The notes beneath the pieces are model-generated. The model was not told the origin of the DNA. It ran no database searches and saw only the letters and a program-made list of their open reading frames with translations. Below, one piece after another: positions 19,858-34,184 of a stretch of 34,704 nt of DNA. The position numbers and the translations under genes were made by a program. Location of the stretch: positions 1 to 34,704 of IMG/VR virus record IMGVR_UViG_3300049791_000035. One strand, written 5' to 3'. Each line of letters starts with the position of its first letter. Position 1 is the stretch's first letter. The DNA comes from a virus.

Positions 19858-20277
19858 TCATATCTCCTTCACCAGCACAGAATGCTTGTGCTTGTAACCG
19901 AATGGCTCCATCTTGGGGACCAGTCCTTTACGAACATAGGATTCTAGGGCGTTGCAACCTTGCTCCTTAGCCCATTCCGATAGTGTAGCATCAGCAAGTT
20001 CAACCCATTCAACAAAATTACTACCGGCCAACGTTATGACGCGGCAGTGCTTGCATTGAGGATAGACGACAATTTCAGTTGTTATTGCTCCGACAACCCG
20101 ATTTTCCTTGCTGATGAGCCAAAGTTGAACGACTCGATTGATGCACATTTGACGGAAATCTTCAAGTGTAAATTCCCCATTAGCATGGTCGAGAGCGCGC
20201 TTGATGTATGGTTCGGCGTAGTGCCAAAGGTTGGCGACAACTTCGGCAGGAACGCCGCGCATGTGGAGGTCACTCAT
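19858..20277 (-). CDS. GNAT-fold-like virion-associated protein, 139 aa
   Basis: The pattern of strands and helices (VVQLWLISKENRVVGAITTEIV, then RVITLAGSNFVEW, and a terminal EPFGYKHKHSVLVKE) resembles GNAT acyltransferase folds. The acetyl-CoA loop (Q/RxxGxG/A) is not clearly present, so activity is doubtful. T7-group phages have a comparable GNAT-like internal protein (gp13) next to their ejection proteins, and this gene holds the same place. It is coupled to the fibre gene by an ATGA overlap at 20274-20277, with GGAG upstream. Confidence 0.6.
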   Translation of the reverse strand: MSDLHMRGVPAEVVANLWHYAEPYIKRALDHANGEFTLEDFRQMCINRVVQLWLISKENRVVGAITTEIVVYPQCKHCRVITLAGSNFVEWVELADATLSEWAKEQGCNALESYVRKGLVPKMEPFGYKHKHSVLVKEI

Positions 20278-23669: not shown

Positions 23670-24329
23670 TCATGTTGGTTTGTGTGGAATTTTTGGAGAC
23701 TGGCCTTGGTTGGAGCCGGTTACTGCGCCTTCCATGCCACTACCTTGCCGCATGTCATTGCCAAATTGGATCATCTTGAAGGCTTCCATTTCCATGCTCT
23801 TGTAACTTTCTAGGGTGGAAGCGTCGCCAACACGAAGGACATTCGCCATCATGTCGTAGGTAGCGCGGAAGACAATGAGGTCTTCGCATGCGCTGGTCCA
23901 CCCGTTTGTATCGCTATCCGCCGAAAGCGTTGGTAGGGAGAAGGTGTAATGAAGCGTAATGCTGGTTACTGAAGAAGGTTTAGGGGCGAAGGCAAGCCCA
24001 TCGCGCCAATAACAAATCTCAGTAGGAACTCCACTTGCTCCAGTTTTGTTTTGGTAAGCAATGCGGTCAAAACTACGAATGGTGAGAACTTGTTGATTAC
24101 CATCAACGGCAACCGTAGCAAAATCCATCGCGAGGAAGTCTGTGGGAATGGCAACGGTTGTAGAGGCGGTGCCAATGGCTACTGCGGTTGCAGTCAAGTT
24201 GAACCAGAACCGCTCTTTCTCATAGTGCTTGATGGCGCGAATGATAGCTCGCTTTGTCTCGGCATTGAGGTCAGTACGGTTCAGGTAATCGAGATTGATT
24301 CGATCCTGCATTTCTTTAAAGGTAGCCAT
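23670..24329 (-). CDS. Head-tail adaptor, paralogue 2, 219 aa
   Basis: The N-terminal 65 residues (KEMQDRINLDYLNRTDLN..TKRAI) are closely similar to the next gene upstream in transcription. The helix/strand layout, including FWFNLTATAVAIGT, then IPTDFLAMDF and the motif LSADSDTNGWT, matches phage adaptor (tail tubular A/gp4-like) proteins that join portal and tail. It differs from its paralogue mainly in the middle and has a Gly/Ser/Gln tail. The 7-base gap to the paralogue indicates tandem duplication. Confidence 0.7.
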   Translation of the reverse strand: MATFKEMQDRINLDYLNRTDLNAETKRAIIRAIKHYEKERFWFNLTATAVAIGTASTTVAIPTDFLAMDFATVAVDGNQQVLTIRSFDRIAYQNKTGASGVPTEICYWRDGLAFAPKPSSVTSITLHYTFSLPTLSADSDTNGWTSACEDLIVFRATYDMMANVLRVGDASTLESYKSMEMEAFKMIQFGNDMRQGSGMEGAVTGSNQGQSPKIPHKPT

Positions 24330-24336
24330 GATAGCC

Positions 24337-24951
24337 TCAAAATATGGTAGGGGTAAGGCGGTGCAGGAATTTGGTATCGTTACGCATGCCTAGTTCATAA
24401 AGAGCCATGTACATAGCGCGTTCATGTCGATCAATTTTACGTTGGTCATCTACTTGAAGGACACCAGTTAGGAGTTCAACGGTTGCGGCATGCGCAATGA
24501 GATTGGAAGCTTCAGTTGTCCATGCGTTTGTGTCGCTATCAGCGCTGAGTGCAGAGAGAGACTTGATGTAATAGATATTGACGGCGTATGCGGAATTAGG
24601 AATAACGGCGAGTTCAAAGCGGTCGCCACGGTACGCGTAACTAGTTGGTTGACCAGGAGTCGCTACGCTATCCATATCACGTACAAAATCAAAGGTATCT
24701 TCACGCAATGGGAAGAAGCCACCACTGTAATTTATTTCAATGCGGTCAAGATATAGGAAGTCGCTGGGGACAGCGATGTAAGATTGGCTGATGGTTGTAG
24801 CTACTGCGGTTGTAGCTTCATTGAACCAGAATCGACGTGCCTCATAGCAGCGAATTGCCGTTGCTATCGCTCGCTTCGTTTCCGGCACAAGTGTCATCTG
24901 GTTCAGGTAGTCCAGATTGATCCTGTCTTGCAGTTCTTTGTACGTTCCCAT
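24337..24951 (-). CDS. Head-tail adaptor, paralogue 1, 204 aa
   Basis: Start at the ATG at 24951 (AGGATTCGTG before it) rather than the GTG at 24954. It shares QDRINLDYLN, ETKRAI, RFWFN, SDFL and LSADSDTN with the gene that follows and is probably an adaptor-type protein of the same family. Two divergent copies side by side suggest either a hetero-oligomeric ring or two stacked rings between portal and hub. The 5' end overlaps the small zinc-finger ORF. Confidence 0.7.
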   Translation of the reverse strand: MGTYKELQDRINLDYLNQMTLVPETKRAIATAIRCYEARRFWFNEATTAVATTISQSYIAVPSDFLYLDRIEINYSGGFFPLREDTFDFVRDMDSVATPGQPTSYAYRGDRFELAVIPNSAYAVNIYYIKSLSALSADSDTNAWTTEASNLIAHAATVELLTGVLQVDDQRKIDRHERAMYMALYELGMRNDTKFLHRLTPTIF

Positions 24952-25039
24952 CACGAATCCTCAATGCACATTTGCGTTCATGCGCCAACAGATGAAGAAA
25001 GCTGCATCCACAATGTCGGCATACATGCTGCTTGACCAT
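24842..25039 (-). CDS. Small zinc-finger-like protein, 65 aa, overlapping the adaptor gene
   Basis: AGGATAGAATC precedes the ATG at 25039. The first 29 residues (HVCRHCGCSFLHLLAHERKC) form a plausible CxxC...H...C zinc finger of a kind seen in very small phage proteins. The rest lies in another frame of the adaptor gene and is polar and low in pattern, so only the first part may matter. The 85-base gap before the adaptor start is otherwise unexplained, which supports a real gene. Confidence 0.5.
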   Translation of the reverse strand: MVKQHVCRHCGCSFLHLLAHERKCALRIRDGNVQRTARQDQSGLPEPDDTCAGNEASDSNGNSLL

Positions 25040-25048
25040 GATTCTATC

Positions 25049-25738
25049 CTATTTCTTGGCCGACATAGCATGATTTAGTTCATCGCGCCACTCCTGCGCA
25101 AACTCACAATCCTTATACTCATCGAACCAAGGACCACCTCTTGTAAAATGAACAATCTTAGCATTTGGATTAGGGGCGTACTCACCTACAAGATGGTTCC
25201 ATTCAACGGGGAGTTCCCCAACGTCCTCAATACTGCGGCACCAACGGAATTGATGGAGGTCCATCGCAGTGACAGTGTTGATGTAGTCGGGAGTAAGGCG
25301 TTGGACGGCACTGCGGTAGCCATTGAAAAGCATGAGAGAGGACCAGTTTTTGCAGGGGTAGGTGGATTGGGCTTGACCAAGGAATTTTGGGTCCGGGTTG
25401 GGCGTGTAATCATGCTTGACCACAAGTACATCGCATGCAGTTTGATTGCGCGCAATTTGTTCTAGATCATAAATATCGCCAAGGCAGAGCATGTCGCAAT
25501 CCATGAAGATTGTATGAACGCCATTACCGCCAAGCCAAGGAGCAAGGAAGCGGGAATAGGTGAAGTCGGTAGATTGGGTTGGATCGCGTTGTCTGGTGTA
25601 AAGGCCTTGCGCCTGCAACTGCGGCAGGTAGAGGGGCATGATGGAAATAGGTTTGGAGGCCCTGCGCATGATGCTATGCGCAAGGACATGGTAAGCCACG
25701 GATTCATTGCGATCGTAGCCAATGACGACATTAAGCAT
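25049..25738 (-). CDS. GT-A-fold glycosyltransferase (GT8-like), 229 aa
   Basis: Start at the ATG at 25738 preceded by GGGAGTGAAGAGG; further upstream ATGs would run far into the neighbouring gene. The N-terminus MLNVVIGYDRNES is a first nucleotide-binding strand and helix. FMDCDMLCLGD contains the DxD metal/nucleotide-sugar motif at 80-82. Near the end KIVHFTRGGPWFDEY holds the His typical of GT8-type enzymes. It should move a sugar from a nucleotide-sugar to an unknown acceptor. Its place with another glycosyltransferase and a methyltransferase inside the structural operon suggests virion or cell-surface glycan modification. Confidence 0.75.
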   Translation of the reverse strand: MLNVVIGYDRNESVAYHVLAHSIMRRASKPISIMPLYLPQLQAQGLYTRQRDPTQSTDFTYSRFLAPWLGGNGVHTIFMDCDMLCLGDIYDLEQIARNQTACDVLVVKHDYTPNPDPKFLGQAQSTYPCKNWSSLMLFNGYRSAVQRLTPDYINTVTAMDLHQFRWCRSIEDVGELPVEWNHLVGEYAPNPNAKIVHFTRGGPWFDEYKDCEFAQEWRDELNHAMSAKK

Positions 25739-25994
25739 CCTCTTCACTCCCATATGTAATAGTAGCTTTTGTTGTACTAGGAGGAAATACAACTAAGCGA
25801 TGCGTCATTAAATCATGATGCTCAGAAGTGTCGTGCAAAGTATGCTCGAAAATAGCTCCTTGTAAATCTCCATTACTTTGCGAGCAAGCAAACTCTGGAA
25901 TGCTTAAAAGGTAAGCTAACATAGTATTTACACGCTCGGTATACGTAGGATGAGCTACTTCTTCCAGTTCTAGCGTAATTATAACTTTAAGCAT
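25731..25994 (-). CDS. Hypothetical protein, 87 aa
   Basis: The start at 25994 (AGAAGCAG before it) overlaps the end of the methyltransferase gene by 8 bases, and the end overlaps the glycosyltransferase start by 8 bases. The N-terminal strand MLKVIITLELEE, a central helix, and a C-terminal strand (TTKATITYGSEEDA) suggest a small alpha/beta domain. Its position inside the modification cassette suggests involvement there. No motif is recognised. Confidence 0.6.
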   Translation of the reverse strand: MLKVIITLELEEVAHPTYTERVNTMLAYLLSIPEFACSQSNGDLQGAIFEHTLHDTSEHHDLMTHRLVVFPPSTTKATITYGSEEDA

Positions 25995-26523
25995 CTGCTT
26001 CTTTCGGTGCATCCAATTCATTGGAAAAAAGAACAGCGGTAAAGTCGCCACTAGTTGCTTGCATGGCATGAAGATTGAAGCGAGGTAAGAGCCATGTCAG
26101 CCACCAATTTGGGTTCTGGATAATGAGGTGGGCATTACGACCATCCGGCAGAATCTTTTTAGCAGGGCGGCAGGCAATGTTGAGGAAGAGGGCTTTCTTG
26201 GTAAGGCCGCGAATATCGTCCAGAACTTCTTTTAAGCAATCTGGTTCAATGTGTTCAAGGACATCTGTACAGACAACAAGGTCGGCGGCAACTGGCCGTT
26301 TGTTGAATTCTCCCATGCAAGGATCGTAGTTTTGAATTGGGAAGGGAATTCCTTTTTGGAGAGTGGATTTGCCACAACCGTAATCGAGGATATCGCGAGT
26401 GCCAAGATTTTTGGCAAGCGACAAAATAACATCGGTGTGCTTAGCTGCGGAAGTGCCGTAATCAGGGCGATCAATATGGAATTTGGTTTGCATCGCCTGA
26501 TACGAAGGAGTAATGAGAGGCAT
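25987..26523 (-). CDS. SAM-dependent methyltransferase, 178 aa
   Basis: Start at the ATG at 26523 after TTGGAG. Motif I DILDYGCGKSTL (residues 45-55) binds S-adenosylmethionine, and DLVVCTDVLEHIEPD (81-95) is the second signature of class I methyltransferases. The C-terminus lacks a long substrate domain. Proteins of this build often sit with glycosyltransferases and methylate sugars or lipids; a DNA target is not suggested by any recognition domain. Confidence 0.8.
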   Translation of the reverse strand: MPLITPSYQAMQTKFHIDRPDYGTSAAKHTDVILSLAKNLGTRDILDYGCGKSTLQKGIPFPIQNYDPCMGEFNKRPVAADLVVCTDVLEHIEPDCLKEVLDDIRGLTKKALFLNIACRPAKKILPDGRNAHLIIQNPNWWLTWLLPRFNLHAMQATSGDFTAVLFSNELDAPKEADA

Positions 26524-26534
26524 GTTTGCTCCAA

Positions 26535-26705
26535 TTAACATTTTGGGCCGGTTACACCGGGTTTCTTCCCCGTAGATGGGGAAGGTTTGCCAAGTGGGGC
26601 AGTGACACCGGGTTGCCGCGATGTAGATGGGGAAGGTTTGGCAATGCCGCTGCTGCTAGTTGGTTTTTGCTGATTTGCGTAGTGGTCATGAGACTTGGAT
26701 TTCAT
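26535..26705 (-). CDS. Small Pro/Ser-rich repeat protein, 56 aa
   Basis: AGGAG lies six bases before the ATG at 26705, which overlaps the end of the TPR-glycosyltransferase gene. The protein is built from two copies of a unit, AKPSPSTSRQPGVTAP and GKPSPSTGKKPGVTGP, encoded by an imperfect direct DNA repeat of about 40 bases. It is disordered and basic with Ser/Thr-Pro stretches and a final Cys. Such sequence could be a glycosylation acceptor of the nearby transferases, which is speculative. Confidence 0.55.
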   Translation of the reverse strand: MKSKSHDHYANQQKPTSSSGIAKPSPSTSRQPGVTAPLGKPSPSTGKKPGVTGPKC

Positions 26706-28272
26706 TTTGTTCTCCTAAGAGGTGAGTGAGACTGAGAGCTACTTCGGCAATGACTGGGGTCCAATCAATCAAGTCAGGGCTCATGCGGAATAAAGTGGTT
26801 TGCCCGTACCAAGGCATTGTATCGAGGTCTAGGCGATAACGCCATGCAGGACGACTTGGAACGATTACCCACGTTGGAACACCCATGCTGCTAGCAAGGT
26901 GCACAACGGAAGTACATACAGTGATAACGAGGTCCAGATTTGCGACAAGACCGGCCGTATCATTGTAGCAAGGACTGTAAACCGCTTCTGGAAATTGGTG
27001 AATCTTGATGCCATGTTTTCGTTCGAATTCACGGATTTCATCCTCTTGTGTGGTGTATTGCAGTGATACGAACTGGCAACCCTTTTGTTTGAGGATAGGG
27101 AGCATTTGTTCAAGAGTGAGGGAGCGGACTTCAATGCGAGTCTTCTTGTGACCCCCAATCCAACTTATACCGATTTTTGGGCCGGGGGGAAGTGCCGCTA
27201 AGCGTTCATTCCAAGTCAATTCAGCAGCAGGGGTAGGTTGAATGTATGGTTTACCGGGAAAAGATTCAATGTTGGGACGGTAGAACTTGCCCAGGGAGCC
27301 TATGGCGACACGATGCGTGAATGCATAGCGAGGAGTGCCGTCACCAAGACAAGGCCAAGTCACATGCTCGTCCTCACGGGTTGGGTAGATGTCGATGGTA
27401 GGGAAGGAGTTCGCAAAGAGCTTGTGAAGCTTCTTATGGCATTCGAAGACCACTAATTCACAGTCAGCAATCAAGTCTGGGAGCATGGAGGAAAAGAGGA
27501 TTTCATCGCCAATACCTTGTTCACCGTAGACGACGACACGAGCACCTTTCTCGCCATTCCAGATTGGAAGTTGTGGAACGTTGGCGGGGGTAAAGTTGCG
27601 ATCTACCCGAACTTTGGCGGGGATACCCCAATTATATTCGGTCCATCCTTCCGTGTAATTGCCTTCTTCCAGCATGGCTAGGGAAAGATTCCAATGGGCT
27701 TGCGCGTGGTCTGGGTCAACGCGGAGAGCTTCGCGGAGGTGGTAGTAAGCTTTGTCGGGACGACCTTCATTGATGTAGAGGGTACCGAGGTTGTTTTGAA
27801 TGTCGGGGTTGATGGGAATGTTTTCTTGAGCCATGTCGAACCATTTGCGGGCTTCGTCAATGTGATTTTCATGTTTGTAACAGGTGCCGATGGCATTTTG
27901 AATTTCGGAGCGCTTGATGTTGATGAAGTCCGCCATCGTCTTATCGGTGTTGGGCTTTGGAGTGATGCCAAGGCGCTTGAAAGCTTCCAGCATGTCGGGG
28001 AGGCGGTCATAAGCATTACGAAGCAGAAGATGGGCAAGGCCATTCTTTTCGGCGACGGCGTAATTCATGCCTAGGGCGGCCATGAGGACCGGGTTGTCGA
28101 AGTCAGAGTTCAGGAGGTCTAGGTAGATGTGTTCGGCTGTTTTACGGTCACCGGTTTGTTCAATTTGAACTGCATTGTAGAAAGGATTGTTATTCTGTAC
28201 CGCAGGAGGGGACAGGCCAAGGACACTGGTTTGTTGGGGAGTGTCCAATTGCATCTTGATTTCCGAGGGCAT
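26686..28272 (-). CDS. TPR-repeat glycosyltransferase (GT9/heptosyltransferase-like), 528 aa
   Basis: The N-terminal half holds tetratricopeptide repeats (for example NALGTLY/NNLGTLYINEGRPDKAYYHL and the following REALRVDPDHAQAHWNLSLA). The C-terminal half is a GT-B-type domain with YGEQGIGDEILFSSMLPDLI near its start and the nucleotide-sugar site VITVCTSVVHLASSMGVPTW near its end, as in GT9 (ADP-heptose-type) enzymes. TPR-GT fusions glycosylate proteins or surface glycans. It is the first gene after the terminator behind the capsid genes and starts the modification cassette. GGAG precedes the ATG at 28272. Confidence 0.75.
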   Translation of the reverse strand: MPSEIKMQLDTPQQTSVLGLSPPAVQNNNPFYNAVQIEQTGDRKTAEHIYLDLLNSDFDNPVLMAALGMNYAVAEKNGLAHLLLRNAYDRLPDMLEAFKRLGITPKPNTDKTMADFINIKRSEIQNAIGTCYKHENHIDEARKWFDMAQENIPINPDIQNNLGTLYINEGRPDKAYYHLREALRVDPDHAQAHWNLSLAMLEEGNYTEGWTEYNWGIPAKVRVDRNFTPANVPQLPIWNGEKGARVVVYGEQGIGDEILFSSMLPDLIADCELVVFECHKKLHKLFANSFPTIDIYPTREDEHVTWPCLGDGTPRYAFTHRVAIGSLGKFYRPNIESFPGKPYIQPTPAAELTWNERLAALPPGPKIGISWIGGHKKTRIEVRSLTLEQMLPILKQKGCQFVSLQYTTQEDEIREFERKHGIKIHQFPEAVYSPCYNDTAGLVANLDLVITVCTSVVHLASSMGVPTWVIVPSRPAWRYRLDLDTMPWYGQTTLFRMSPDLIDWTPVIAEVALSLTHLLGEQNEIQVS

Positions 28273-28295: not shown

Positions 28296-28332
28296 TAAAA
28301 AAGAAACCAGCGAGGGTTGGTCGCTGGCTTCA
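28296..28332 (-). terminator. Rho-independent terminator after the capsid genes
   Basis: On the minus strand the stem CCAGCGA/TCGCTGG (28321-28327 with 28307-28313), extended by three more pairs with one GU, closes a 7-base loop and is followed directly by TTTCTTTTTT. The position, between the small capsid-region gene and the TPR gene, would lower expression of the modification and tail genes relative to the capsid. Confidence 0.8.
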
Positions 28333-28377: not shown

Positions 28378-28788
28378 TCAAGGCATGTTGGTATAGTCCA
28401 CGCGGATAGTCAGATCGACTGTGCCGGGAACCGCCGAAAGGACGGTTACAACAAGGTCAATGGTGTCTTCTGCGGAGTAGCTACGACCAAGGCCCCGGTA
28501 GGTCATGGCAGCAAGGGAGACTGCCGAACCTGAAAGGACAACGGAAGCAGCGTATGCCGAAGTATCGTTGCCGTCACCGCAATTCACAGTGATTGCGCCA
28601 GCGGAAGCGGAACAAGCAAATTGGACAGCAGAGACATTGCAGCCATTTGGTACACGTACCATTTGAATGACATCACCAACGGACAAGGCGACTGGATGTG
28701 TATAGTGCACGATCCGGGTAACAGTGCCATTGACGATATATTGCGCTGGCGACGTAGAAGAAGCAGCAGATGCAGTGAAGGTAGCCAT
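28378..28788 (-). CDS. Small capsid-associated (decoration-like) protein, 136 aa
   Basis: I start it at the ATG at 28788 with AAAGGAG upstream; the frame is open far back into the capsid gene but without a ribosome site. The protein is Ser/Ala/Thr/Val-rich and almost all beta (SAVQFACSASAGAITVNCGD, then VDLTIRVDYTNMP). It is directly behind the major capsid gene and shares its transcript, so a head decoration or other virion protein is likely. Confidence 0.65.
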   Translation of the reverse strand: MATFTASAASSTSPAQYIVNGTVTRIVHYTHPVALSVGDVIQMVRVPNGCNVSAVQFACSASAGAITVNCGDGNDTSAYAASVVLSGSAVSLAAMTYRGLGRSYSAEDTIDLVVTVLSAVPGTVDLTIRVDYTNMP

Positions 28789-28801: not shown

Positions 28802-29875
28802 TTAGTTAGTAGTATGAGCGGCTGCCCATGTACGGATTGCGATAGTGGCGAAGTCGCTGCCGTTAAATACAGTTTTCTTGAGACCGGCAATGCAGCCTGC
28901 CGCCACACCAAACTGATTTTCGTAATCGAAGTAGTCTTCGACCCAATCGTAACGTTCGGGAGCGTTGCCGCGACCGAAAGCCATGACGGCAGCTTGAGCG
29001 CCGCAAAGAACAGCAACCCGCCCAGTGTTGGCTACAAGAGAAGTACCAGCTGAGAATCCACTCACACGATTCGATGCATGCAAAATCACACCATTGTACT
29101 CACCAAGAGCACCAGTATAGATTGGATTTTTGGTGACGTTGCCACCTTGCATTGCAGCTTTTTGAATATCGAACCATTGATTGGTAGAAGTGGAATTCTT
29201 CATGTCTGTCACTTGGTAGTGATGGAGGAACATGACGTATTTCATTTCACCACCGACCATAACTGGACGGATTGGAACAGCAAGGGTTTTTGCTTTTTCA
29301 ACGGCGACATCAACGAGAGTCAGCGAAAACTTATAGCTGGCACTATTTGAAAGGGAAGCGTCGGTGGAGGCAGAACCCGCATAGATCAAGTGATCGGCAT
29401 CGGCTGCAATTGCGGTTTGGTTGCCGGTATAACGGGTATCGGTTTGGCCTGTGTTACCGCAGATTTGATTAAAGAACCAAGTATCGATACGGTCGGCCCA
29501 CCAATCCTGCAAGGAAAGACGAGCATGTTCGCGGACATCGAATGGAACAAGTTGACGACTAAATTTACCACCTTCACGGACTGCATGGCGAAGTTGATTG
29601 ATATAGAGGTCATCGTTGTAGTAGTTGATTTTTTCTTCGCTGCCTTCAAGGGTAGCGTCACCTTGGACGCCATCACCGGACAGGAGGCGGCGCAATGGAA
29701 TGCGAATGCGGTCGCCCGGACCTTTGGAAGTGTCATCGTGAATTTGGATAACGGCGGAATCGTCATTACCCATGAATTTGAAAGCCCACGTAGCCTTGAG
29801 GGCTTCGACGGATACTTTCTTGGACCACAATTTAACGGCGAGAGCATCACCTGTGGCAAAACTGGTAACAGCCAT
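28802..29875 (-). CDS. Major capsid protein, N4-gp56 type, 357 aa
   Basis: The sequence follows the N4-gp56 family of HK97-fold capsid proteins: an N-terminal arm ALAVKLWSKKVSVEAL, then GDRIRIPLRRLLSGDGVQGD, a central LYINQLRHAVREGGKFSRQL and EHARLSLQDWWADRID, and a C-terminal part with RVAVLCGAQAAVMAFGRG and FDYENQFGVAAGC. The length is usual. TAGGAGG precedes the ATG, one of the best ribosome sites in the window, fitting high expression. A promoter candidate lies about 150 bases upstream. Confidence 0.9.
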   Translation of the reverse strand: MAVTSFATGDALAVKLWSKKVSVEALKATWAFKFMGNDDSAVIQIHDDTSKGPGDRIRIPLRRLLSGDGVQGDATLEGSEEKINYYNDDLYINQLRHAVREGGKFSRQLVPFDVREHARLSLQDWWADRIDTWFFNQICGNTGQTDTRYTGNQTAIAADADHLIYAGSASTDASLSNSASYKFSLTLVDVAVEKAKTLAVPIRPVMVGGEMKYVMFLHHYQVTDMKNSTSTNQWFDIQKAAMQGGNVTKNPIYTGALGEYNGVILHASNRVSGFSAGTSLVANTGRVAVLCGAQAAVMAFGRGNAPERYDWVEDYFDYENQFGVAAGCIAGLKKTVFNGSDFATIAIRTWAAAHTTN

Positions 29876-31136: not shown

Positions 31137-33041
31137 TTAGAGGTTGTTGACAAAAAAGTTAACGTTGAAATAAACGTTCCCGCTGCTATTTGGTTTGACA
31201 CGGCATTGAACAGCTTCATTAGAGAGAACTTTCCAAGGTGGGTCAAAATTCATTACAAAACCGCCGCCCGCTGAGACTAAGTACATGACAACTACATCGG
31301 GGGAACCTGACCAGCCGATATGAGCGCCGGTTGTTACAGTACCACCGTTGGTAACGGCAAGAGATGTGACGTAAACGAAGTTGCCAGCGCCCGGTGCCGC
31401 AATAAGTGTAGCTGTTGCACTTGTGGAGATTTGCAGCATCTTCGGACCGTGGGAAGCGGATTGAATATTGATGACGTAGGCGTTGGTTGTAGCGACAGTG
31501 ACGGTAGCGCTGATATTATTGATAAAGCCAATATTCGCTGTACCAGCAGCTAGGGAGACAGCACCCATAAGCGCGGTGCCTGCCGCGATAGAAACTGCGC
31601 CAATAAGCGCGGTGCCAGCACCAATAACTGTATTAACTGTAGCGGAGATATTATTAATGAAACCTATGTTGGCTGTCCCTGCTGCAAGCGACACAGCGCC
31701 CATGAGAGCTGTACCAGCAGCATTGACGACACTGACTGTTGCGCTGATATTATTTAGAGTACCGAAGTTAGCAGTACCAGCGGCAAGGAGAACGGTTACG
31801 GTTGCACTGATATTGTTAATACTACCGATATTGTTCGCACCAGCAGCAAGGACTACTGCGGCAGAGATATTGTTGACGGTGCCAATGTTGGCAGCACCAG
31901 CGGCGAGAACAACTGAGGCAGTTTTACTGATGCCTTCAACATTGACGTAAAGAGGGGCGGCTGCGGTCCCAATTTCAGTACCAGCATTGGCGCGAAGATT
32001 AACGTGAAGACCCCGGAATTCAGTCATACGAGCAGCCCCCATACGGCCGTCTGTCATGGCGGTAGAAGAAGCTGAGAAGAACATAAAGCCAGCGGGAGCG
32101 GTATTAGTGACACCAGTTGAATAGGTAGTGTTATCAACAATGCTTGGGCCACTAGCGGAACCAGCTACTACATTCACGCGGAGGGCAGCATTAGCACTAT
32201 CTTCCATCTTGACGCCACCGTCCGTCCGTAAATTGGAGTGAACACCACGATATTCAGTCATGCGAGCAGCAGCAACCCGACCATCTCCAACTGTGGTTGC
32301 GGAAGCTGAAAAGAAAATGTAACCGCCTGGAATGACTTCGTGGACACCAGTTGAGTAAAGACTACCATCTTGATTGGAAGGACCACTTGCTGAACCAGCA
32401 ACCACATTGACACGAAGTGCGGAGTTTGCGCTATCTCCGACATAAACGTGATTGGAAGTTTGAGTGCTGTCATGAACGTAAGCCATGCCAGTAGTGACAG
32501 TTGCGCTAATATTGTTGATGAAGCCGATGTTGGCAGTTCCAGCAGCTAGGGAAATACCCCCGGCAAACGCAACATTGACCGTAGCACTGATATTGTTGAT
32601 GAAACCGATATTGGCGGTGCCTGCGGCGAGTGAGATGCCACCTGCAAAAGCTACATTGACGGTCTTGGAAATATCATTGATCGTCCCCATATTGGCAGTA
32701 CCGGCAGCAATAGTTACACTACCTGCGACTGTGACGGTTGCACTGATATTGTTGAGTGTAAAGGGAGTGCCAATAGCAACTTGCACAGTTCGGCTGATAT
32801 CGTTAATGGTGCCGATATTGGCTGTACCTGCGCCCACTACGACTGAGGCAGTTGCACTGATATTTAGATTTCCAGTAACAGTAAGTGCACCGTTAGTGAC
32901 AGTCGCAAATTGTGCTGTAGCTGAATTATCGCCAATAACAATGCGTTGACGAATTACGCTGTCTGCGCCCACATCAAGACTGGCGGCATCAACCTTCTTG
33001 CCGGTACTGTCCGGTGGGACTTGAATATTGCCGTTAGCCAT
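31137..33041 (-). CDS. Highly repetitive virion/fibre-like protein, 634 aa
   Basis: The N-terminus (NIQVPPDSTGKKVDAASLDV) is shared by many phage structural proteins. Two arrays of a repeat of about 18-30 residues (cores LAAGTANIGFINNISATV and variants) cover roughly residues 55-190 and 375-520. Between them lie two copies of a 70-residue domain (SALRVNVVAGSASGPS, then FFSASATTVGDGR and MTEYRGVHSNLR). A C-terminal 100-residue beta domain has FVYVTSLAVTNGGTV and VVVMYLVSAGGG. Repeats probably build a beta-solenoid shaft. Near-identical DNA repeats at 31500-31780 and 32490-32660 make length changes by recombination likely. Confidence 0.7.
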   Translation of the reverse strand: MANGNIQVPPDSTGKKVDAASLDVGADSVIRQRIVIGDNSATAQFATVTNGALTVTGNLNISATASVVVGAGTANIGTINDISRTVQVAIGTPFTLNNISATVTVAGSVTIAAGTANMGTINDISKTVNVAFAGGISLAAGTANIGFINNISATVNVAFAGGISLAAGTANIGFINNISATVTTGMAYVHDSTQTSNHVYVGDSANSALRVNVVAGSASGPSNQDGSLYSTGVHEVIPGGYIFFSASATTVGDGRVAAARMTEYRGVHSNLRTDGGVKMEDSANAALRVNVVAGSASGPSIVDNTTYSTGVTNTAPAGFMFFSASSTAMTDGRMGAARMTEFRGLHVNLRANAGTEIGTAAAPLYVNVEGISKTASVVLAAGAANIGTVNNISAAVVLAAGANNIGSINNISATVTVLLAAGTANFGTLNNISATVSVVNAAGTALMGAVSLAAGTANIGFINNISATVNTVIGAGTALIGAVSIAAGTALMGAVSLAAGTANIGFINNISATVTVATTNAYVINIQSASHGPKMLQISTSATATLIAAPGAGNFVYVTSLAVTNGGTVTTGAHIGWSGSPDVVVMYLVSAGGGFVMNFDPPWKVLSNEAVQCRVKPNSSGNVYFNVNFFVNNL

Positions 33042-33050
33042 GATATGTCC

Positions 33051-34184
33051 TTAAAATCTGAAAGTTCTACGATTACGACCGCCAAATGCGTAGGAATTGG
33101 AACCTGCCGGTGGTGGTGGAGGTGGTGGGTCTGGTACGCCAGTGTACTCTAATGCACCAACATCATATGCGCCACCTTGCGGTCGAGCAACACCATCGTA
33201 GTCGGTAGAGGGAACGTAAGCCGTGTTGGCCGCTCCAATTGCTAGCGAAGTAGAGGAAAGATGGTAATCCCCGGTGCCATCATCAACGTAATTGATGAAT
33301 GTAGCACTTTTTGAAATCCGACCAGATTCCACACCATCTTGCGCAGGATTGTCGCCGTCTGTGGCAAACTGATTGGCAGAACTATGCCCGAAAAGCATAT
33401 TGTTGACATAGACGTTACTGCCAACTAAACCGAGTTCCCGAATACCATAAGCACCATTGAAGACGGAAATGTTGTTATAGACTTTATTATCTGTACTACC
33501 ATTTGGAAGTTGGCCGCTGTCACCACTGCCGATGATGATGCCACCAGCCCCGCAATTGCCAACCGTGTTGTTGTAGAAAAAGGATTCATCGGCTCCATGC
33601 CATTGATGCAAGCCGTAAGCGGCAATGTCAAAAACGATGTTGTTGTAGACGACGGCACTGGTACCGCCGCAATAGATGCCTTGAATTTGTGCTGTGCCGG
33701 TAACATGAGCAGCATCAATGCGACAAACCAAATTATTAAAAACTTGCCAACGAGCCCCAATGCAGTCAATGCCAGCGCCACCACTAGTAGGGCTACCTTG
33801 GCAGAGAACATCATGGACATAACAATTTTTAGTCACACAATCATTTCCTGTACTGTAATAGCCGATACGCCCATGAGTGGAAAGATCAAAACCATCGATG
33901 GTTACACCATTGCCGGAATTATTCCAAAGGATGGAAGCAGAGGAATCCCCACTACCCAAACCGGTAATGATGGCAGCTTGCTTGGTGAGTGCTTGGTAAG
34001 TGATATTGGCTTTGGCAGTTGCAAAACCAGAAATATTGTAGGTGCCACCAAGGACGATTACAGTGTCGCCAACCGTAACTACAGAAGCAGCAGAACCAGC
34101 GCGAGCAATGGAAGCCCATGCACCAGCCGTAGTAGTCCCGGCGTTGGCGTTATTGCCGGTAGTGGAAACGTAATAAAGGGTCAT
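33051..34184 (-). CDS. Right-handed beta-helix protein with poly-Pro tail, 377 aa
   Basis: The start YYVSTTGNNANAGTT is the opening of DUF1565/pectate-lyase-like beta-helix proteins. Successive coils follow with Asn-rich turns (NNLVCRI, YNNIVFDIAAYG, FYNNTVGNCGAGG, VYNNISVFNGAYG). The last part (DYDGVARPQGGAYDVGALEY) matches the choice-of-anchor Q end of such proteins. It then runs into about seven Pro and a short aromatic/basic C-terminus (SYAFGGRNRRTFRF). Likely a virion-bound glycan-binding or depolymerase protein. Catalytic residues cannot be assigned. Confidence 0.75.
   Translation of the reverse strand: MTLYYVSTTGNNANAGTTTAGAWASIARAGSAASVVTVGDTVIVLGGTYNISGFATAKANITYQALTKQAAIITGLGSGDSSASILWNNSGNGVTIDGFDLSTHGRIGYYSTGNDCVTKNCYVHDVLCQGSPTSGGAGIDCIGARWQVFNNLVCRIDAAHVTGTAQIQGIYCGGTSAVVYNNIVFDIAAYGLHQWHGADESFFYNNTVGNCGAGGIIIGSGDSGQLPNGSTDNKVYNNISVFNGAYGIRELGLVGSNVYVNNMLFGHSSANQFATDGDNPAQDGVESGRISKSATFINYVDDGTGDYHLSSTSLAIGAANTAYVPSTDYDGVARPQGGAYDVGALEYTGVPDPPPPPPPAGSNSYAFGGRNRRTFRF

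Follow-up and report, generated by a model that had tools for sequence, protein, structure and literature searches.

Why would a tailed virus keep glycosyltransferase and methyltransferase genes between those for its capsid and those for its head-tail adaptor? This question is raised by positions 25049 to 28272 of IMG/VR record IMGVR_UViG_3300049791_000035, the whole 34,704-base record of one uncultured virus, which was analyzed here as the window. Its virion operon lies on the minus strand and runs from the major capsid protein (MCP) gene through a cement (capsid decoration) protein gene and a hairpin to the gene for a tetratricopeptide repeat (TPR)-glycosyltransferase (TPR-GT), followed by a 56-aa open reading frame (ORF), a methyltransferase (MT) gene, a small ORF, and the gene for a GT8-like glycosyltransferase. 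On the 3' side of the latter come a zinc-ribbon-like ORF, the genes for two SU10-like adaptors, and that for a virion structural protein of phrog_3287. With moderate confidence, we read the cassette as a module with which the phage O-glycosylates its own virion in the cytoplasm, acting most likely on the cement protein, with glycan extension and methyl capping.

The first of the three enzymes is a 528-aa TPR-GT9 fusion (26686..28272, minus strand), in which Pfam detects TPRs and which would be the initiating protein glycosyltransferase. In the structure model (mean pLDDT, 94.4), a TPR superhelix at about residues 28 to 222 is followed by a GT-B domain at about residues 239 to 522. The N-terminal half matches TPR proteins structurally, and the GT-B half is best matched by 3tov (Z of 18.5, 3.1 Å, 262 residues), with WaaF at 16.8 and TibC at 16.1. 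When the whole chain was searched with Foldseek, SPINDLY and O-GlcNAc transferases (OGT), which glycosylate proteins and likewise bear TPRs, ranked first, with low whole-chain TM scores. TibC and the GT9 heptosyltransferases (4rap, 4rb4, 1psw, and 3tov) share the GT9-type GT-B domain over about 250 to 260 residues (Z of 16 to 18.5) but are 11 to 13% identical to the TPR-GT and lack the TPR superhelix. TibC is a GT9 enzyme that glycosylates a protein, an autotransporter, and WaaF acts on lipopolysaccharide (LPS). The label TPR-GT9-like, given in an earlier note on this DNA, was borne out by the model and the GT9 fold matches of this structure-based comparison.

A GxGD motif stands near the start of the GT-B domain, and its D256 is presumably the catalytic Asp, as in WaaC. 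Residues W238 and W504, together with Q252-G253-x-G255-D256, W371, G373, G374, and Y406, are invariant in 52 of 52 TPR-GT sequences. The invariance of the latter group, at a mean column identity of 31% in this set, argues against a catalytically inert TPR-GT that, as a chaperone, helps the capsid or cement protein to assemble while the other enzymes act elsewhere. TPR domains are common in chaperones, and the GT9 His458 varies in 3 of the 52 sequences; however, two further transferases co-occur with the TPR-GT, and we find a chaperone hardly credible.

The second sugar transferase of the proposed pathway is a GT8-type GT-A glycosyltransferase (25049..25738, minus strand; phrog_28018, 2.5e-48). 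Its ORF is open to 25792, and the start of its relatives corresponds to MLNVVIGYD. The earlier GT8-like label is upheld by the predicted fold (pLDDT, 93.6), which matched GlyE (Z of 17.5), WbbM, LgtC (17.1), LARGE1 (16.5), and glycogenin; Z differences below 1 were treated as ties, so GlyE is the top row and the other GT8 folds are tied with it. D98 and D100 of the DxD motif and H215 and P221 of the C-terminal His motif are invariant. GlyE, LgtC, LARGE1, and glycogenin share the GT-A fold, the DxD motif, and the C-terminal H..G.P motif with the phage enzyme but are only 12 to 19% identical to it. A single-sequence search against the PDB returned nothing relevant, and a profile search gave weak matches to WbbM and GlyE. 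GlyE builds glycans on a serine-rich adhesin.

The third enzyme, a class I S-adenosylmethionine-dependent MT (25987..26541, minus strand; phrog_24759, 2.2e-24), is proposed to cap the sugar. It contains the motifs LDYGCGK, NYDP, DVLEH, and LPDGRNAH, the last being a conserved signature; motif I and the post-I acidic region are both present, with L52, D53, and G55 and Y72, D73, and P74 invariant. Its match to Methyltransf_23 (E of 0.00033, 20.9 bits) fell below the cut-off of 27, and the profile search gave marginal matches only, to the RNA 2'-O-methyltransferase Hen1 (E of 0.004) and a Mg-protoporphyrin MT. The Hen1 match, along with the frequent action of phage glycosyltransferases on DNA (PMC12619734), might suggest that the enzymes modify phage DNA, for example, by glycosylating hypermodified bases as in T-even phages. 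We consider this very unlikely, because the folds are of the GT9 and GT8 types, the cassette belongs to the structural operon rather than to a replication block, and no base-hydroxymethylating enzyme is annotated in 38 of the 44 kb of the relative MW202512.

The arrangement of these genes is conserved. In the close relatives readable across the cassette, namely, L002, L003, L005 to L008, and L009 (MW202512, a 44-kb circular complete genome), the order is TPR-GT, MT, GT8, and adaptor, and the window's three enzymes are 53 to 67% identical to theirs. All three genes were found in 57 distinct uncultured viral loci, for the most part in this order. Since order and place are kept at this level of identity and so many loci carry the full set, the cassette is beyond chance. 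When viral contigs were seeded with the MT, all three genes were present in 50 of 80 loci; among the 38 with enough flanking sequence, both partners lay within 5 kb in 24, with exactly the order TPR-GT, MT, and GT8 in 22 of these. In most of the 57 loci, the upstream neighbor is a major head protein that belongs to phrog_334 (35 members) or to phrog_1328 (7 members), and downstream are the adaptor and the phrog_3287 protein, annotated as a phage stabilization protein in MW202512. The cassette occupies the same slot behind two different capsid families.

When sampling started from the capsid protein, the cassette was found in 26 of 53 informative loci, or 25 of 39 when at least 4.5 kb downstream was required. 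The glycosyltransferase domain occurred in all 26, GT8 in 24, and MT in 20, and neither GT8 nor MT was ever alone. In the cassette-free loci, the gap from the MCP to the adaptor or stabilization protein was 0.4 to 1.6 kb (2.2 kb in one), which represents the empty site. About seven changes of cassette state were placed on the MCP tree, at least two of them forced by well-supported branches. The earlier note had called such a set rare in tailed phages, and this holds for catalogued phages: a near full-length TPR-GT match was present in 1 of 50,697 records (MW202512), and the annotations of the cultured phages RHph_Y1_10, KLEP18-1, and BcepIL02 contain no such cassette. It does not hold for uncultured viral contigs. 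Separately, L158 and L184 have ORFs starting MLCIVGHGPSVL and MIVIVGHGPSVG, respectively, between the phrog_1328 MCP and the TPR-GT, and by eye these resemble the alpha-2,3-sialyltransferase-like proteins found in glycan clusters of phages.

Which protein, then, would receive the sugar? The candidate is the 136-aa cement protein (28378..28788, minus strand; N-terminus MATFTASAASSTS), which starts 13 bases after the end of the MCP ORF. Its family profile has matches to 7eel, a solved cement protein (E of 1e-6), and to 8h89, a virion associated protein (1.8e-6), and this relation, together with the position of the gene beside the MCP, marks it as an Ig-like cement protein. As reported previously, the outer surface of the phage GP4 head bears trimers of Ig-like cement proteins, which amount to 540 copies (PMC9698820). 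The cassette-type cement was detected in 51 of 51 cassette-bearing genomes and 1 of 26 cassette-free genomes (Fisher test, 2e-19, a value that overstates independence because the sequences are related). The profile was trained partly on the same sequences, and the held-out test is therefore the fair one. In that test, six cassette-bearing genomes scored 82 to 126 bits and 22 cassette-free genomes scored 2 to 39 bits. When the MCP, the adaptor, and the stabilization protein were used as controls in the same test, the scores overlapped and did not separate by cassette. Over the approximately seven state changes on the MCP tree, the cement type follows the cassette. The held-out profiles took the place of a regular expression that had captured the cassette-free cement type too narrowly. 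Ser plus Thr content of the cement protein was higher with the cassette (21% versus 18%, p of 0.002; nearest-pair p of 0.019), but this was not used as independent evidence because it reflects the different cement type. The cassette-type cement has alternating Thr residues at positions 3, 5, and 7, which could be acceptor sites or merely part of a beta-strand at the capsid interface.

The same data bear on the possibility that another virion protein, such as the MCP, a tail fiber, or a repeat protein encoded at 31137-33041, is glycosylated and that the cement gene is a passenger moved along by recombination. The cement gene is a neighbor of the cassette, the trio occurs without the cement in phages whose capsid is of phrog_1328, and relatives of GT8 and MT lie behind tail genes in the Caulobacter giant phage CcrColossus. 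In addition, capsid and tail-tube proteins are reported to be glycosylated in mycobacteriophages (PMC12619734, PMC12363180). However, the adaptor, which is the cassette's other neighbor, does not separate genomes as the cement does, and the enrichment in Ser and Thr that was also sought in the MCP was absent, with no difference between genomes with and without the cassette. We therefore regard another acceptor as rather doubtful, although a real contender, and keep the cement protein as the preferred one. Even so, the cement acceptor would not be universal, because the phrog_1328 phages carry the trio without a recognizable cement relative; the acceptor may differ there.

A protein acceptor is also favored by the neighbors of bacterial relatives and by the precedent of FlmG. 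Bacterial proteins related to the TPR-GT share 28 to 40% identity with it. Of 78 bacterial loci, 13 have a PilA-like major pilin gene 94 to 1249 bp from the TPR-GT relative and 2 have a flagellin gene within 0.4 kb; some loci also hold GT8 and MT relatives. In the tree, the phage TPR-GTs fall on one side (60 rows, comprising 56 phage, 2 prophage, and 2 other; SH-aLRT, 95). A large contig of Reyranella sp. CPCC 100927 (L256) and a contig of a Thiotrichaceae metagenome-assembled genome (L267) contain the MCP, the cement, and the trio, i.e., they are integrated or co-binned relatives. The betaproteobacterial contigs L254, L257, L262, L264, and L304 carry several TPR-GTs with GT8 and MT relatives; L262 and L304 adjoin type IV pilin genes, and contigs of this kind are possibly a type of pilin-modification locus. 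In Caulobacter crescentus, the experimentally studied enzyme FlmG combines TPRs with a GT-B domain, its TPR domain binds flagellin, and it is needed for flagellin O-glycosylation (PMC7591256). The TPR-GT has the same order of N-terminal TPRs and C-terminal GT-B domain; FlmG is cytoplasmic, and the protein that it modifies assembles itself into a surface filament. In contrast to FlmG, to which it is likened by architecture, the cassette enzyme is phage encoded, lies by capsid genes, and has GT8 and MT partners, and the sugar of FlmG is pseudaminic acid.

The earlier note had also suggested a change of host surface glycans, which could serve receptor masking or superinfection exclusion. The GT9 and GT8 families do include LPS heptosyl- and galactosyltransferases, and phage seroconversion enzymes are well known. 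However, the highest 19-residue hydropathy was 1.81 in the TPR-GT and 0.87 in GT8, which gives no clear membrane anchor; most relatives lie in a virion operon; a fusion of TPRs to a glycosyltransferase typically goes with a protein acceptor; and the bacterial counterparts often stand beside pilin or flagellin genes. Remodeling of the host surface is thus unlikely.

The module would work as follows. The TPR superhelix would bind a capsid-surface protein during its synthesis, most likely the cement protein encoded after the MCP, and the fused GT9-type domain would use a host NDP-sugar to attach the first sugar to Ser or Thr. The GT8-type enzyme would then add a second sugar, and the MT would O-methylate the terminal sugar as a cap. 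Finally, the glycan-bearing cement would become part of the capsid, so that the head would be coated with sugar. Glycosylation and methylation of virion proteins, as proposed in the earlier note, are consistent with the folds, the MT motifs, the conserved placement in the virion operon, and the pilin and flagellin neighbors, although the glycosylation itself is a prediction. The folds, the conserved catalytic motifs, the gene order and site, the empty site, the co-segregation of the cement type, and the pilin and flagellin neighbors are established here.

Several points weigh against this reading. From the above we infer, and only infer, catalytic activity, donor sugar, step order, acceptor residues, and the effect or benefit for the virion. 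The window's TPR-GT has no match to PF01075 (GT9) up to an E of 0.1, for which reason it is called GT9-like and not a GT9 member (4 of 101 proteins from bacterial loci match this family), and its H458 is kept in 49 of 52 sequences but replaced in the other 3. The GT8-like enzyme scores 20.5 bits against the curated PF01501 cut-off of 24.3; because such cut-offs were missed, the GT8 and methyltransferase labels are kept as "-like." In the phrog_1328-capsid phages, no cement match was found beside the trio, and contig L216 has a cassette-type cement without the cassette. The cement gene adjoins the cassette, so the linkage could be physical. In Pam1, the N-terminal loop of the cement protein sits at the capsid interface (PMC9698820); thus, Thr 3, 5, and 7 may belong to a structural strand and not be glycosylation sites. 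Relatives of GT8 and MT are also found far from capsid genes. Giant phages of Caulobacter carry the two as a pair behind tail genes, and Stenotrophomonas phage DLP_6 also has the pair. Other MT relatives do lie near virion genes: that of Roseobacter phage CRP-9 is next to the coat protein, and that of Tetraselmis virus S20 is part of a group of glycosyltransferase genes preceding the head-closure gene. In CcrColossus, gp126-gp131 resemble the cassette in having adjacent GT8-like and MT relatives and an annotated family 9 glycosyltransferase but differ in the lack of a TPR-GT match, in virion type, and in an extra sialyltransferase-like gene.

The borders and small ORFs of the cassette were also examined. 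The named genes lie where the earlier note placed them, on the minus strand, and its gene calls are correct, with the third small ORF lying just outside 25049-28272; the flanks are as claimed. Upstream is the MCP (Phage_capsid_3/phrog_334; 28802..29875, minus strand; Pfam 1.3e-71, PHROG 4.4e-85), and downstream are two SU10-like head-tail adaptors on the minus strand, at 24337..24954 (PF24175, 3.7e-16), which borders the cassette, and at 23670..24329 (8.3e-14). The suspected terminator ahead of the cassette corresponds to a hairpin with an 11-bp stem and a TTTTTT tail in the intergenic gap between the cement gene and the TPR-GT (28303..28331, minus strand). It has the longest stem of the window's terminator-like matches, which are not enriched (9, versus 8.3 in shuffled sequence). 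The 56-aa Lys/Ser/Thr/Pro low-complexity ORF (26535..26705, minus strand), which overlaps both neighbors and had been suggested as an acceptor, is lineage specific: L002 holds its one significant relative and L005 an ORF of loose similarity, and in many loci the MT gene follows the TPR-GT gene directly. It was rejected as a general acceptor because it is not conserved. Lys/Pro/Ser/Thr-rich ORFs of 55 to 61 aa occur in this spacer twice in L002 and once, loosely similar, in L005; other contents are an HNH-endonuclease-like ORF (L009) and, by eye, a trypsin-like serine protease ORF (L028 and L030). With such varied ORFs, the spacer looks like an insertion hot spot. The small ORF of about 87 aa (25731..25994, minus strand; longer ORF to 26069) occurs only in the window, with no relatives among the compared loci. 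The zinc-ribbon-like ORF (CxxC..H..C; 24842..25039, minus strand) overlaps the adaptor start and has a 41% relative in L002 over residues 6 to 44.

Elsewhere on the minus strand, three other proteins were noted. The 634-aa protein at 31137-33041 has many tandem NISATV...AAGTANIG repeats, is kept in relatives, lacks a PHROG match, and is possibly a head or tail fiber. The 377-aa protein at 33051-34184, also without a PHROG match, has by eye the look of a parallel beta-helix with a proline-rich C-terminal stretch and may be a depolymerase-like fiber. A 139-aa protein at 19858-20277, among fiber and ejection genes, is 51 to 63% conserved in the relatives that cover that place, where it is annotated as an acyl- or acetyltransferase.

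Virion glycosylation itself has a precedent. In mycobacteriophages, phage-encoded glycosyltransferases decorate capsid and tail-tube proteins (Freeman et al. 2023, as cited in PMC12619734 and PMC12363180), and phage enzymes are likewise proposed here to decorate virion proteins. However, the portions of these two papers that we consulted describe neither a TPR-GT9/GT8/MT trio nor a cement linkage, and searches of the phage collection with the TPR-GT and GT8 returned no mycobacteriophage. Our literature search found no description of the trio. Thus, virion glycosylation is already known, and the TPR-GT9/GT8/MT architecture and the cement linkage appear to be new.

Virion glycosylation has been documented in few phages, and the cassette offers a genetically defined module that recurs and for which a specific acceptor is predicted. 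Tentatively, and at somewhat less than even confidence, we propose a self-contained glycosylation island that is widespread in uncultured podoviruses and has co-evolved with its own acceptor; a TPR-guided GT9-like enzyme would place a methyl-capped glycan on the cement protein, hundreds of copies of which would form a sugar coat on the head, and its bacterial cousins would act likewise on pilins and flagellins. Because nature provides genomes with and without the cassette, as well as the empty site, the role of a capsid sugar in stability, shielding, or surface adhesion is directly testable. The phage enzymes are also linked to a bacterial group of TPR-glycosyltransferases whose genes neighbor those of pilins and flagellins, which suggests a common principle, namely, that the enzyme is encoded beside the abundant self-assembling protein that it modifies.

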